NCBI RefSeq assembly: GCF_001202025.1
Contig: NZ_LGHS01000066.1
Coordinates: 62,001-126,000, forward strand
Direction of reading: 5' to 3'
DNA length: 64,000 nt
From: Pseudorhodobacter aquimaris
GTDB lineage: Bacteria; Pseudomonadota; Alphaproteobacteria; Rhodobacterales; Rhodobacteraceae
Made by a program: the position numbers and the translations under genes. The notes under the pieces are model-generated. The model did no database searches, was not told the DNA's origin, and saw only the letters and a list, made by a program, of their open reading frames with translations. Numbering within the stretch: the stretch's first letter is position 1; each line of letters starts with the position of its first letter. Below, piece after piece: positions 23,161 to 31,252 of this stretch.

Positions 23161-23964
23161 ATGGCCGATACCACTCTGGCAGCCCTGTTTCTGGGTGTAC
23201 TTGAGGGGCTGACGGAGTTTATTCCTGTTTCCTCTACGGGTCATATTCTGTTGGCCGGCCATTTCATCGGCTTTGAAAGCTCTGGCAAGACCTTTGAGGT
23301 CGTGATCCAGTTGGGCGCGGTGCTTGCTGTTTTGTCGGTCTATGCGGCAAAGCTGTGGGGTTTGTTCCGTGCGGCACCGCATGACCCAGCAGCACGCAGG
23401 ACAATCCTGTCGGTTCTGGTCGCGTTTTTGCCGGCAGTTTTCATTGGTGTGCTTGCGCATGATTTCATCAAGACGGTTCTGTTTGAAAGCCCGCGCCTGA
23501 TTTCGGTGATGTTGATCCTTGGGGGCATTGTTTTGGCGTTCGTGGACCGCATCGCGCCGGAACCGCGTTATGATGATGCGATGAAGCTGCCACTGGGCGT
23601 CGCGCTCAAGATCGGGTTCATCCAATGTCTTGCGATGATTCCGGGGGTGTCGCGTTCGGGGGCGACGATCGTCGGGGCCTTGATGCTGGGGGCTAATAAA
23701 CGTGCTGCGGCCGAGTTTTCGTTCTTCCTGTCGATGCCGACGATGGGTGGTGCGTTCGCCTATGACCTCTATAAAAACTACGATGTGCTGGATGCCGGTG
23801 CGATCAATGAGATCGCCATCGGCTTTGTTGCTGCATTCATCTCGGCCATTTTCGTTGTACGCTGGCTGTTGGGATATGTCAGCCGCCATGGCTATGCCCT
23901 GTTTGGCTGGTGGCGAATCATCATTGGCGTCCTTGCTTTTGCGGCGCTTTCGTTGGGGCTATAA
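23161..23964 (+). CDS. uppP: Undecaprenyl-diphosphatase UppP (BacA)
   Basis: 267 aa integral membrane protein with about eight hydrophobic segments. The family motifs are [15 protein letters not shown] near residues 14-28 and [19 protein letters not shown] in the middle. It removes one phosphate from undecaprenyl diphosphate so the carrier lipid can be reused for peptidoglycan and surface polysaccharide synthesis. Close spacing to the NDUFA9-like gene suggests one transcript. Confidence 0.96.
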
Positions 23965-23970
23965 GTTGGT

Positions 23971-23989
23971 AGGTAAGTATTACTGACCT
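23971..23989. promoter_or_regulatory. 19-bp palindromic operator-like site 1 before gltD
   Basis: AGGTAAGTATTACTGACCT is a 9-1-9 inverted repeat with one mismatched pair. It begins 6 bp after the uppP stop. A second copy lies exactly 74 bp further on. Confidence 0.6.
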
Positions 23990-24044
23990 GTAATTGATAA
24001 AAAAAAGCACAAGCTGAGGCAGAAAGTTAAAAATACTGCCAATT

Positions 24045-24063
24045 AGGTAAGCATTGCTGACTT
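24045..24063. promoter_or_regulatory. 19-bp palindromic operator-like site 2 before gltD
   Basis: AGGTAAGCATTGCTGACTT repeats site 1. The T-to-C change in the left half is matched by A-to-G in the right half, so the inner dyad is kept. Centre-to-centre distance to site 1 is 74 bp, close to seven helical turns. It ends 63 bp before the gltD start. The cognate regulator is unknown. Confidence 0.6.
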
Positions 24064-24126
24064 TTAATTTATTGGCCAGCGCAGTATCACGACACCCTGA
24101 CCTAAATTCTTCAGGGAGGCGCCTTC

Positions 24127-25563
24127 ATGGCCCAGGAAAAAATGCTTCGCTTCGTTACGGTTGCCCGTGAGATGCCTGAAAAGCGCCCACCTGATCTACG
24201 CTCCCAGGATTTTCATGAAATTTACCGCGAATATGCCGCTGACAAAGCGGCAGAGCAGGCCGCGCGGTGCAGCCAATGTGGCGTGCCCTATTGCCAGTCG
24301 CATTGCCCTTTGCACAATAATATCCCCGACTGGCTGCGCCTGACTGCCCAAGGCCGCCTGCAAGAAGCCTATGAGCTGTCGCAAGCCACCAATACCTTCC
24401 CCGAGATTTGCGGCCGCATTTGCCCGCAAGACCGGCTTTGCGAAGGCAACTGTGTGATTGAACAATCGGGCCACGGCACGGTGACAATCGGCGCGGTTGA
24501 AAAGTACCTGACGGATACGGCTTGGGAAAACGGCTGGGTCAAGCCGATCAAACCAGCACAGGAACGCACCGAAAGCGTTGGCATCATCGGGGCCGGGCCG
24601 GGCGGTCTGGCGGCTGCGGATGTCTTGCGTCGCGCGGGTGTGCAGGTCACGGTTTACGACAGCTATGATCGGGCGGGGGGGCTGATGACCTATGGCATTC
24701 CCGGCTTCAAGCTGGAAAAGCCCATCGTGATGCAGCGCGTAGAGCAACTGGAAACGGCAGGCGTGCAGTTTGTGATGAATTGCACTGTTGGCAGGGATCT
24801 GACCTTTGACGCGATCCGGGGGCGGCATGATGCGGTGCTGATCGCGACTGGTGTATACAAGGCCCGCGACCTGCCCGTGCCGGGTGTCGGCGCAAAAGGG
24901 ATTGTCCCCGCGCTGGAGTTTCTGACCGCCAGCAACCGCAAGAGCTTTGGCGATGATGTGCCTGCCTATGACGATGGTACGCTGAACGCGGCGGGCAAGC
25001 GGGTGGTGGTTATCGGCGGTGGTGATACGGCGATGGACTGTGTGCGCACGGCGATCCGCGAAGGGGCCGTCAGCGTGAAGTGCCTCTATCGCCGCGACAA
25101 GGCGAATATGCCGGGCAGCCAGCGTGAAACCCAGAACGCCGAAGAGGAAGGTGTCGACTTTGTTTGGCTTGCCGCGCCAAAAGGCTTTACCGGCGGTGAG
25201 TCGGTTGAGGGCGTGATGGTGCAAAAGATGCGCCTTGGCGCGCCGGATGCCACGGGCCGTCAAAGCCCTGAGGTGATCGAGGGTGCCGATTATATCGAGC
25301 CTGCCGATCTGGCGATCATGGCACTGGGCTTCGAACCCGAAGACCTGCCGACCCTCTGGGATCAGCCTGGGTTGGAAGTGACCCGCTGGGGCACGATCAA
25401 GGCCGGTTTTGCAACCCATGCGACCAATCTGCCCGGCGTTTATGCCGTGGGCGATATCGTGCGCGGTGCCAGCCTTGTGGTCTGGGCAATCCGTGACGGG
25501 CGTGAGGCGGCGGCGTCGATGCTTGCCTATATCTCGCAGGAACAGATCGTCGCGGCAGAGTAG
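24127..25563 (+). CDS. gltD: Glutamate synthase [NADPH], small subunit
   Basis: 478 aa. The N-terminal part has the 4Fe-4S cysteine sets CSQCGVPYCQSHCP and CGRICPQDRLCEGNC. It is followed by an FAD domain (GIIGAGPGGLAAADVL, VYDSYDRAGGLMTYGIPGFKLEK) and an NADPH domain (VVVIGGGDTAMDCVRTAI). The C-terminal GVYAVGDIVRGASLVVWAIRDGREAA closes the FAD site. It passes electrons from NADPH to the large subunit for making glutamate from glutamine and 2-oxoglutarate. It stands 1.1 kb upstream of gltB with two unknown genes between, and two palindromes lie in front of it. Confidence 0.97.
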   Translation: MAQEKMLRFVTVAREMPEKRPPDLRSQDFHEIYREYAADKAAEQAARCSQCGVPYCQSHCPLHNNIPDWLRLTAQGRLQEAYELSQATNTFPEICGRICPQDRLCEGNCVIEQSGHGTVTIGAVEKYLTDTAWENGWVKPIKPAQERTESVGIIGAGPGGLAAADVLRRAGVQVTVYDSYDRAGGLMTYGIPGFKLEKPIVMQRVEQLETAGVQFVMNCTVGRDLTFDAIRGRHDAVLIATGVYKARDLPVPGVGAKGIVPALEFLTASNRKSFGDDVPAYDDGTLNAAGKRVVVIGGGDTAMDCVRTAIREGAVSVKCLYRRDKANMPGSQRETQNAEEEGVDFVWLAAPKGFTGGESVEGVMVQKMRLGAPDATGRQSPEVIEGADYIEPADLAIMALGFEPEDLPTLWDQPGLEVTRWGTIKAGFATHATNLPGVYAVGDIVRGASLVVWAIRDGREAAASMLAYISQEQIVAAE

Positions 25564-26711: not shown

Positions 26712-29700
26712 ATGACAAACTCCCCCGTTTACGATGCTGCCTGGGTTGCTGCCGAGGAAGCGAAACGCGCCTATATGGACGCAAATAGCCTGTATAAATC
26801 CGAGGATGAGCACGCCTCTTGTGGGGTCGGGCTGGTCGTTTCCATCTCGGGGAAGCCAAGCCGCGCAGTCGTGCAAAACGGCATTAACGCGCTCAAGGCG
26901 ATCTGGCACCGCGGGGCTGTTGATGCCGATGGCAAAACCGGTGACGGCGCGGGGATCCATGTGCAGATCCCGGTCGAATTCTTCTATGACCAAGTGCGCA
27001 GAACGGGGCATGAACCCGACACCACCAAGATGATTGCCGTCGGTCAGGTTTTCTTGCCGCGCACGGATTTCGGCGCGCAGGAACGGTGCCGGACTATTGT
27101 CGAAACCGAAGTTTTGCGCATGGGCCACAGGATTTATGGCTGGCGCCATGTGCCGGTCGAAACATCTGTTCTGGGCGAAAAGGCCAACGCCACCCGCCCC
27201 GAGATCGAACAGATCCTGATTCGTTGCGATCAGGACATAGAAGAAGAACAGTTCGAGCGTGAGCTTTATATCATCCGCCGCCGTATCGAAAAAGCGGCCG
27301 CTGCGGCCCAGATCGGCGGGCTTTATCTGTGCAGCCTCTCGTGCCGCTCGATCATCTATAAGGGCATGATGCTGGCCGAGGAGGTTGCGGTTTTCTATCC
27401 CGACCTGATGGATGAGCGTTTTGAGTCTGCCTTTGCGATTTACCACCAGCGCTATTCGACCAATACTTTCCCGCAGTGGTGGTTGGCCCAGCCGTTCCGC
27501 ATGCTGGCCCATAACGGTGAGATTAACACCCTGAAGGGCAACGTAAACTGGATGCGCAGCCATGAGATCCGCATGGCCTCTGCTACGTTTGGCGATATGG
27601 CGGATGATATCAAACCGATCATTCCGGCGGGTGCCTCGGATAGTGGTGCGCTGGATGCGGTGTTTGAGGTGATGGTACGCTCGGGGCGCAACGCGCCCTT
27701 TACCAAGACCATGTTGGTGCCTGAGGCGTGGAGCAAAACCACAACCGATATGCCCAAGGCTTGGGCCGATATGTATGCCTATTGCAACGCGGTGATGGAG
27801 CCATGGGACGGCCCCGCGGCGTTGGCGATGACCGATGGCCGCTGGGTTTGCGGCGGGCTTGACCGTAACGGTTTGCGTCCGATGCGCTATGTCGTCACCG
27901 GCGATGGTTTGCTGATTGCAGGCTCCGAGGCGGGCATGGTGCCGGTGGATGAGGCCAATGTGCGCGAAAAAGGCGCGCTTGGGCCGGGTCAGATGATTGC
28001 CGTCGATATGCAGGAAGGCAAGCTTTACCACGACGGCGTGCTCAAGGATAAGCTGGCTCTGCCCAGCCCTTTGGCGACTGGATTGAAAAGGTGGTGGAGC
28101 TGAATGAATATCTGATCAACCTGCCTGAACATGCCGGATTTACCGGTGCCGAGCTGCGCAAGCGCCAGATCGCGGCCGGTTATTCACTTGAAGAACTGGA
28201 ACAGGTTCTGGCCCCGATGGCCGAGGATGGCAAAGAGATGATCGCCTCGATGGGGGATGATACGCCTGCCGCGGTGCTGTCGTCGGTTTACCGGCCATTG
28301 TCGCATTTCTTCCGGCAGAACTTCAGTCAGGTCACCAACCCGCCCATCGACAGCTTGCGCGAAAGCCGGGTGATGAGCCTGAAAACACGTTTCGGGAACC
28401 TGAAAAACGTGCTGGATGAAGGCAGCAGCCAGACCGAGATTCTGCTGCTTGAAAGCCCGTTCATCGCCAATGCCGAATTTGACGCGATGATGGACCATTT
28501 TGGCGCGACGGTATCGGTGATCGACTGTACCTTCCCCACCGGCCCGGATGCCCTGCGTGAGGGTCTGGAACGGATCCGTGCCGAGGCCGAAGATGCCGTG
28601 CGTTCGGGCGCTGGCCACCTGGTTTTGACGGATGAACACCAAGGGCCGGACCGCGTGGCGATGCCGATGATCTTGGCCACAAGTGCTGTGCACAGTTGGC
28701 TGACACGCAAAGGGTTGCGGACGTTTTGTTCGATGAACCTGCGCTCGGCCGAATGTATCGACCCGCATTATTTCGCCGTGTTGATCGGCTGCGGCGCGAC
28801 CACTGTGAACGCCTATCTTGCACAAGACAGCATCGCCGACCGCATTTCGCGCAATCTGATCGAAGGTAGCTTGACCGAGGCGATGGCGCGCTACCGTGCG
28901 GCGATTGATGCGGGTCTCCTCAAGATCATGTCCAAGATGGGGATCTCGGTTTTGTCGTCCTATCGTGGGGGGCTGAACTTTGAGGCCGTCGGCCTGTCGC
29001 GCGCGATGGTTGCGGAATATTTCCCCGGCATGCACAGCCGGATTTCCGGCATCGGCGTTTCCGGCATCCAGCACAAGCTGGAAGAGGTCCACGCACGCGG
29101 GTGGCTTGGCAGGGCAGAGGTTCTGCCAATCGGCGGCATCTATAAATCGCGGAAATCAGGCGAAAAACACGCTTGGGAAGCGCAGACGATGCATATGTTG
29201 CAATCGGCCTGTGATCGCGCCAGCTTTGATCTGTGGAAGCAATACTCCGCCGCGATGCAGGCCAATCCGCCGATCCACCTGCGCGATCTGCTGGCGATCA
29301 AATCCTTGGCCAAGCCGGTGCCGATCGAGGAAGTGGAAAGCATCACCTCCATCCGCAAACGGTTCGTGACGCCGGGGATGTCGCTGGGGGCGCTCTCTCC
29401 CGAGGCGCATAAAACCCTGAATGTTGCGATGAACCGCATCGGCGCCAAATCCGACAGCGGCGAGGGCGGCGAAGATCCGGCGCACTTCCTGCCCGAGGCC
29501 AATGGGGATAACCCTTCGGCCAAGATCAAGCAGGTCGCCTCTGGCCGCTTTGGCGTGACGGCGGAATATCTGAATGCCTGCGAAGAGCTGGAGATCAAGG
29601 TCGCGCAAGGGGCCAAACCGGGCGAAGGCGGGCAGTTGCCGGGGATGAAAGTTACCGAGTTGATCGCAAGGCTGCGCCACTCGACGCCGGGGGTGACGCT

Positions 29701-31252
29701 GATCTCACCACCGCCGCACCATGACATCTATTCCATCGAGGATCTGGCACAGCTGATCTATGATCTCAAACAGATCAACCCGCGTGCCAAGGTGACGGTG
29801 AAACTGGTATCAAGTTCGGGCGTTGGTACGATTGCGGCCGGCGTGGCCAAGGCCAAGGCCGATGTGATTCTGATCTCGGGCCATAACGGCGGCACCGGTG
29901 CCAGCCCGGGCACCTCGATCAAATATGCGGGTCTGCCGTGGGAGATGGGCCTGACCGAGGCGCATCAGGTGTTGAGCATGAACAACCTGCGCGAACGGGT
30001 TACCCTGCGGACCGATGGCGGCCTGCGTACGGGGCGCGATATCGTGATGGCGGCAATGCTGGGGGCCGAAGAATACGGTATCGGCACCGCGGCATTGATC
30101 GCGATGGGCTGCATCATGGTGCGTCAGTGCCAAAGCAACACTTGCCCGGTTGGCGTCTGTACCCAGAATGACGAGTTGCGCAAGAAGTTCACTGGCAATG
30201 CGGATAAGGTGGTGAACCTGATCACCTTCTATGCGCAAGAGGTTCGGGAAATCCTTGCCTCTATCGGCGTGCGCTCGCTGGATGAGATTATCGGCCGTGC
30301 GGACTTGCTGTCGCAGGTCAGCCGTGGGTCGGCGCATCTGGATGATCTGGACCTGAACCCGCTGTTGATCACTGTCGATGGTGCGCAGCGGATCACCTAT
30401 GACCGGTCCAAGCCGCGCAATGCGGTGCCTGATACGCTGGATGCCGAGATTATCCGCGATGGTGCGCGTTTCTTTGAGGATGGCGAAAAGATGCAGCTGT
30501 CCTATGCCGTGCGTAACACGCATCGGACGATCGGTACGCGGGCGTCCAGCCATATCATCAAACGCTTTGGCATGCGCAACACTTTGCAAGAGGATCACTT
30601 GACGGTGAAACTCTCGGGATCTTGCGGGCAGTCGTTGGGCGCATTTGCGGCCCGGGGCCTGAAGCTGGAGGTGTATGGTGATGCGAACGACTATGTTGGC
30701 AAGGGGCTTTCGGGCGGTACAATCGTGGTGCGTCCGCAGATGTCCAGCAGGTTGGATGCGTCACGCAATACCATCATCGGTAATACTGTGCTCTATGGTG
30801 CGACAGATGGTAACCTGTTTGCCTGTGGCCGTGCCGGTGAACGTTTTGCCGTGCGCAATTCGGGCGCTTCGGTGGTGATCGAGGGCTGTGGCACCAATGG
30901 TTGCGAATATATGACCGGCGGTGTTGCGGTTATCCTCGGCTCTGTCGGGGCGAACTTCGGGGCGGGGATGACGGGCGGTATGGCCTATCTCTATGACCCG
31001 GACGGGGTGGCCGAGGATTTCATCAACCCTGAAAGCCTTGTCACCTGTGCCGTCAGCAATCCGCATTGGGAAGCGCAGCTGCGTGGTTTGATCGAACGTC
31101 ACGTTGCAGAGACCGGCAGCCTGAAGGGTCAGGAGATCCTGAATGACTGGGCGCATGAGCGGGCGAATTTCCTGCAAGCCTGCCCCAAAGAGATGCTCGC
31201 CCATATTCCGCATCCGCTGAGTGATGAGCGGGATGCAGTACCGGCGGAATAA
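26712..31252 (+). pseudogene. gltB: Glutamate synthase large subunit gltB, interrupted by a single frameshift
   Basis: Two adjacent frames together give a full-length ~1510 aa GltB. The first (26712-28103) holds the propeptide and the class II glutaminase domain with catalytic C37 (SCGVGL). The second, from about 28061 to 31252, holds the central domain, the FMN barrel (KLVSSSGVGTIAAGVAKA, ISGHNGGTGASPGTS), the 3Fe-4S cysteines (CIMVRQCQSNTCPVGVC) and the beta-helix. The join is at 28056-28061: after GCT the frame moves by -1, so the correct AQPFGDWIEKVVELNEY continues in the other frame. One missing base explains it. This is either a real null mutation or a sequencing/assembly error; everything else is intact. 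No slippery heptamer is present. Confidence 0.9.

Follow-up and report, generated by a model that had tools for sequence, protein, structure and literature searches.

A conserved, precisely spaced pair of dyads upstream of gltD in Pseudorhodobacter aquimaris and related bacteria: candidate operators of glutamate synthase

The dyad pair in the uppP-gltD gap

The gene gltD, encoding the small subunit of glutamate synthase, was identified on the forward strand of the window, the whole stretch of 64,000 nucleotides of Pseudorhodobacter aquimaris that was analysed (24127-25563; NCBIfam TIGR01318, 531.2 bits with a cut-off of 482.95). Its upstream neighbour, on the same strand, is uppP (23161-23964, NCBIfam NF001389), which is not the gene that the sites described here go with. 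The gene of the large subunit, gltB, was split into two overlapping frames (26712-28103 and 28091-31252), which may be a frameshift or an assembly error.

Two dyads lie in the gap between the uppP stop codon, ending at 23964, and the gltD ATG at 24127, and both are given on the forward strand. Site 1, the upstream dyad, occupies 23970-23990 in a 21-bp frame (TAGGTAAGTATTACTGACCTG, centre 23980) and is followed by an A/T-rich tail (23991-23998), matched by a tail in the family logo. Site 2, the promoter-proximal dyad, occupies 24044-24064 (TAGGTAAGCATTGCTGACTTT, centre 24054), and its T-rich tail, drawn from the family logo, extends over 24062-24071 and covers the -35 position. The preliminary description had reported two 19-bp palindromes at 23971-23989 and 24045-24063 with centres 74 bp apart, which was exact; the A/T-rich 3' tails on both sites were absent from it.

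The pattern shared by the two dyads was found with up to three mismatches at only two places in the 64-kb window, one of them matching on both strands, while shuffled sequences gave a mean of 0.02. Within two mismatches it occurred nowhere else in the 3.8-Mb genome. Two further genome matches, each with three mismatches, are meaningless because the reversed control gave as many at that limit (2 + 2).

The two copies differ at three places, and the base changes had been described as mirrored between the half-sites. This holds for two of the three differences (GTA..TAC versus GCA..TGC), but the third (ACCT versus ACTT) is unmirrored. Mirroring as evidence of selection for a symmetric site found no support in the relatives, as site 2 of 96 of them contained 563 complementary cells versus 570.6 expected from shuffled columns (p 0.91). 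Single position pairs in site 2 gave p values of at least 0.20, except the outermost pair with 0.011 (9 cells versus 7.9), and mirrored changes were likewise unsupported in 22 sites before an oxidoreductase-like gene described below (p 0.72). The dyads had also been taken as two copies of one element. This is true of the window and its genus, where the 21-bp form suits both sites in 8/8 regions with a spacing of 74 bp. It is not general, since among 95 family regions there were 39 in which site 1 was better fitted by a 19-bp form, with N5 between the arms, than by the 21-bp form of site 2. The 19-bp form was recovered outside the family with the same template.

Conservation, spacing and promoter geometry in relatives

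For the comparison within Rhodobacteraceae, 97 oriented regions upstream of gltD were used, representing 90 of 120 genomes (one per genus) and seven further members of the window's genus; one more genus member (G002) was left out with a partial gltD. All but one of these regions (96 of 97) contained the site-2 profile ahead of gltD, with both arms conserved; the exception (G098) had a similar dyad at a shifted position. The profile was applied with a threshold of 12, while the best score in shuffled regions was 5.8 in a test of 20 regions. Twenty further regions from the 120 genomes contained site 2 in 18 cases (missing in G016 and G150), and the remaining 10 genomes stood outside the counts, nine having no close gltD and one (G151) a partial gltD. 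In addition, site 2 was present in 80 of 80 named loci, including Cereibacter johrii, with a TA at +40 in all of them. Absence of the dyads before gltD in close relatives had been named as the observation that would speak against their link with this gene, and the reverse was found. The family consensus of site 2 is about TAGGTCAGYATTGCTGACTTTTMTTTC.

Site 2 was present both with uppP co-directional (30 regions) and with uppP divergent (65/66), and it belongs with gltD since it is kept whichever direction uppP has. One genome (G018) carried in addition a perfect GGTCAGCAATGCTGACC about 96 bp downstream of gltD, ahead of the next gene (L006, 1501-1517).

The spacing of the two sites could be measured in 95 of the 96 regions with site 2, one being too short. 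The centre distance was 73-75 bp in 85 of these 95 regions, 74 bp in 61 of the 85, and shuffled upstream sequence gave no peak of spacing. For the comparison outside the family, 86 genomes were surveyed, 84 of which were non-Rhodobacteraceae. Of these 84, 40 yielded gltD, and scoring covered 28 loci, each of a different family. The site-2 threshold was reached in 23 of the 28 loci, compared with 2.85 of 28 in dinucleotide shuffles, and five fell below it. In these 23 loci the best site 1 lay 83-86 bp away in 16, 74-75 bp away in two and at another distance in five, among them L338. Shuffling the outside loci in 40 rounds produced the 83-86 bp spacing with a mean of 0.05 and a maximum of one.

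At 10.5 bp per turn, distances of 74 and 84 bp amount to seven and eight turns, so the same face of the helix is kept. The proposal that both sites face the same side was thus supported, as the spacing keeps to whole helical turns, with lineages one full turn apart (85/95 in the family, 16/23 outside). This one-turn difference is the best indication that the two dyads have to lie on one face, and conserved spacing that shifts by whole turns is expected of a looping or cooperative pair of operators. Both arms of site 2 being conserved at a fixed promoter position is likewise expected of a site for a symmetric dimer. From the sequences, the dyad pair looks like an old and precisely spaced control element common to many related bacteria.

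Of 96 family regions, 91 had a TA dinucleotide at offset 41 from site 2. It lies at 24085 in the window, where it begins the putative -10 element TATCAC (24085-24090, forward strand). Outside the family the TA was at offset 59 in 15 of 22 loci, L338 having been dropped by hand. When this TA is read as T-12 A-11, the predicted position of site 2 is about -43 for family members and about -61 for the other loci; site 1 of the window would lie at about -117. None of the 91 family regions with the TA had a T at -7, including the window, and no sigma-70 consensus -35/-10 pair was found at 23900-24200. Alphaproteobacterial promoters often have no T at -7 (PMC8407463). We infer that this layout, with no consensus pair, would suit an activated promoter, and the predicted position of site 2 at about -43 or -61 favours an activator.

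Other genes carrying the dyad

In the family the dyad recurs before a gene with a POR domain, which we take to be indolepyruvate ferredoxin oxidoreductase-like by its full name and which is divergent from a LysR gene. Among the best 30 lysR loci, the dyad was present in 22/22 with the oxidoreductase-like gene (21 strong, and L181 weak at 4.0) and in 0/8 without it; G139 was scored as being without the gene, since it had only relatives of 49-50%, and G029 is an incomplete genome. In nine regions from deep genera, three (G012, G025 and G133) kept the dyad at the oxidoreductase-like gene away from lysR, and no dyad was seen in the other six, one of them an incomplete region. Another family (L378-L380) also kept the dyad at this gene apart from lysR. 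At lysR in loci without the oxidoreductase-like gene no dyad was found (0/8 and 0/6).

At the oxidoreductase-like gene the dyad directly abuts TAnnnT in 19 of 22 cases, the TA of the supposed -10 being the end of the dyad itself, and the core promoter is likely to be filled by it. A protein bound there would block RNA polymerase, if the -10 is correct.

The third target is an aminotransferase gene, with the dyad close upstream in four genera (G075, G034, G018 and G105). The aminotransferase promoter of G105 (L229) contains two dyads 38 bp apart. A GntR-like gene adjoins the aminotransferase in two genomes (L148 and L229); in L148 this gene is divergent and has a GGTCA-N7-TGACC dyad at its start, with a similar one in L229, as seen by eye.

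A strict pattern of the dyad, searched in 61 genomes, occurred at 22 places: 16 at gltD, two in the gap between the oxidoreductase-like gene and lysR, two at the aminotransferase and two unexplained (L149 and L155), while the control gave 0. The strict pattern was present in 103 of the 120 genomes. Among the matches listed, 20 places away from gltD and lysR were read, of which 17 lay inside open frames of at least 70 aa, two at the aminotransferase and one (L220) elsewhere. The strict 21-bp dyad was found at 16 sites in 15 of 289 genomes of the class, and the reversed control matched 10 genomes; as the strict count is only somewhat above the control, it is the location and not the count that carries the signal. 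Fifteen of these 16 sites were read, six of them at gltD, five at the oxidoreductase-like gene, two at a MarR-like gene that lies opposite an ilvE-like one (names taken from the sequences as read) and two elsewhere. One genome of 1.2 Mb (G324, L370) had a perfect dyad before gltD, with TATAAT at another distance by eye, and such a small genome is useful for narrowing down the regulator.

Candidate regulators, mechanism and comparison with known systems

The preliminary description could not match the dyad to FNR, NtrC, Rex or Fur-type sites; of the regulators compared here, LsrB-type LysR, Lrp, LdtR and NtrC, all fit poorly. An LsrB/VtlR-type LysR as the binder was first favoured from adjacency, because in most Rhodobacteraceae read its gene is divergent from the oxidoreductase-like gene with the dyad in between. 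At E 1e-60 such a LysR had a match in 117 of the 120 genomes of the family, and its gene is kept where the oxidoreductase-like neighbour is lost. In addition, TCA-N7-TGA in the site-2 consensus agrees with the generic LysR rule of T-N11-A in an imperfect dyad, which is a loose rule, and the arrangement is the usual divergent one. The reading was weakened because the dyad tracks the oxidoreductase-like gene and not lysR, as the counts given above indicate, and no dyad was seen at the regulator's own gene apart from that neighbour, where one is expected but not required. Of the published boxes, that of VtlR, GCAT-N3-TG-N3-T (PMC7486931), matches in register at 18 of the 96 site 2s of the family, the window's own (24044-24064) among them, which is near the expectation from column shuffles (13.5, p 0.08); it fits one of 22 oxidoreductase sites, and its GCAT part falls in the variable spacer instead of the conserved part of the dyad. 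The LsrB box, TGCA-N6-GCAT (PMC10746234), overlaps site 2 in 0/96, despite a DNA-binding domain nearly the same as that of the trxB-linked relatives. LsrB-type LysR is possible as the binder and not favoured, and we rate it as rather unlikely. Reading by eye placed an LsrB-like LysR gene next to a trxB-like gene in many families of Alphaproteobacteria (L309-L336), although a section title of PMC11975290 reads 'LsrB is a LTTR unique to Rhizobiales'. In Agrobacterium VtlR lies downstream of trxB.

Binding by Lrp would suit the amino-acid genes among the targets, and a close Lrp is widespread (57/61 family genomes). Lrp is also known to bind at gltBD of E. coli. Against this, the dyad was missing from all 29 lrp promoters that could be read in 30 loci (L381-L410; best score 6.1), which mostly carried another motif, with TTGCG within 130 bp in 27/29 and GAAAYA-N2-3-TTGCG in 21/29, perhaps for Lrp autoregulation, so that Lrp appears very improbable. 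The NtrC motif TGC-N11-GCA was present in nine of 97 upstream regions compared with 8.75 in shuffles, and overlapped site 2 in three of 96. A further candidate, an LdtR/PetP-like MarR, was prompted by the dyad lying over the start codon of the MarR-like gene opposite the ilvE-like one in two genomes from a single genus (L366 and L367). It was rejected, being weakened by the published AT-rich LdtR site ATATTCCTTGTATTTTAA, which did not correspond to the site-2 consensus when the two were compared directly.

The explanation we favour, with some confidence, is that the dyads are paired operators of an undescribed dimeric regulator activating gltBD. It starts from the conservation, the fixed spacing, the one-turn difference between lineages, the fixed TA and the dyad shared with other genes, all of which are read from the sequences; from them we infer protein binding, the elements of the promoter, the direction of regulation, the loop and a single protein for all sites. 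Site 2, at about -43 and next to a promoter that has neither a good -35 nor a T at -7, would be bound by a sequence-specific dimer. A second dimer would be bound, or partnered, at site 1, which lies seven turns of the helix further upstream on the same side of the DNA, and the two site-bound dimers may interact through a loop or a protein bridge and raise transcription of glutamate synthase. The same regulator probably represses the aminotransferase and also the oxidoreductase-like gene, whose likely -10 borders directly on a single dyad, and would in this way balance glutamate synthesis against the use of amino acids. Several observations were counted against this explanation: the strict matches in the family that fit no target (L149, L155 and L220), the loci of other families lacking site 2 or a site 1 at either spacing, the class-wide strict count so close to its control, and the TA of the supposed -10 belonging to the dyad at the oxidoreductase-like gene. 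A wider version of it, which we put forward tentatively and with less than even confidence, would have a class-wide and dedicated regulator of glutamate homeostasis, undescribed so far, whose bridged pair stands seven turns apart in Rhodobacteraceae and eight elsewhere, activating gltBD from about -43 or -61 and repressing genes that burn amino-acid carbon.

The same DNA could be read in other ways. As sites 1 and 2 are often unlike in form, two different proteins are possible, which was counted against the reading with a single regulator: one would bind the 19-bp form at site 1, another the 21-bp form at site 2, and they would cooperate across seven or eight turns. The better fit of the 19-bp form at site 1 in the 39 family regions speaks for this, as does its full template in five loci outside the family (L339, L344, L350, L351 and L353), but in the window's genus both sites have the 21-bp form throughout, and the TAG/CTA ends and the A/T-rich 3' tail are common to both sites, so we regard two proteins as somewhat unlikely. 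Repression loops of the GalR/LacI kind classically use two phased dyads, and looping repression would use the same anatomy as an activator pair. The blocking position at the oxidoreductase-like gene suits a repressor, and the dyad overlaps TTGACT at the aminotransferase genes by eye, but the positions of about -43 and, in other families, -61 are those usual for activators and the gltD promoter has neither a consensus pair nor a T at -7; a looping repressor operator pair at gltD is judged unlikely. That the palindromes act as RNA, as terminators or attenuator hairpins, might be supposed from the T-rich sequence after the dyad and from site 1 beginning just past the uppP stop. Compensatory changes were not found in site 2, folding was hardly better than in shuffles (z -0.58 and -0.12), no terminator pattern and no Rfam match at E 0.1 were obtained, so that no stable hairpin with compensatory changes was seen, and the dyads are retained where uppP is divergent, against an RNA role, which makes this reading extremely improbable.

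Paired operators for an activator, as favoured here, are an element of an ordinary kind, yet this one spans many families with a sharply held geometry and would have an undescribed regulator. Carbon and nitrogen metabolism meet at glutamate synthase. The element supplies an exact DNA bait together with a small predicted target set. It is also a natural experiment in DNA looping, since lineages are one helical turn apart in the spacing of the sites and 18 bp apart in the distance to the -10. In the open-access literature, searched by title or the start of the abstract, no paper describing this dyad was found, and no dedicated regulator of glutamate synthase in Alphaproteobacteria, NtrC being reported for some.

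In some alphaproteobacteria gltBD is an NtrC target, as stated in PMC5343134. These systems share the operon with the present one and differ in the motif TGC-N11-GCA, which is at shuffle level here. The LsrB/VtlR system of Rhizobiales resembles the present one in its T-N11-A core, its context of nitrogen and amino-acid metabolism and the close relative present in nearly all family genomes, and its GCAT-N3-TG-N3-T box fits the window's own site 2. This box is not the conserved part of the dyad, the TGCA-N6-GCAT box has no overlap with site 2, and the dyad does not track lysR. With E. coli Lrp at gltBD the likeness lies in the same operon, the amino-acid genes and several phased sites, and the difference in the lrp promoters, which here have mostly another motif in place of the dyad. 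GltC activates gltAB in Bacillus subtilis from dyads near the promoter, and is alike in being a dedicated activator of glutamate synthase with sites so placed. Unlike the GltC system, no regulator gene adjoining gltD was noticed in the loci read by eye; the taxon is different, and here the sites form a pair 74 or 84 bp apart.
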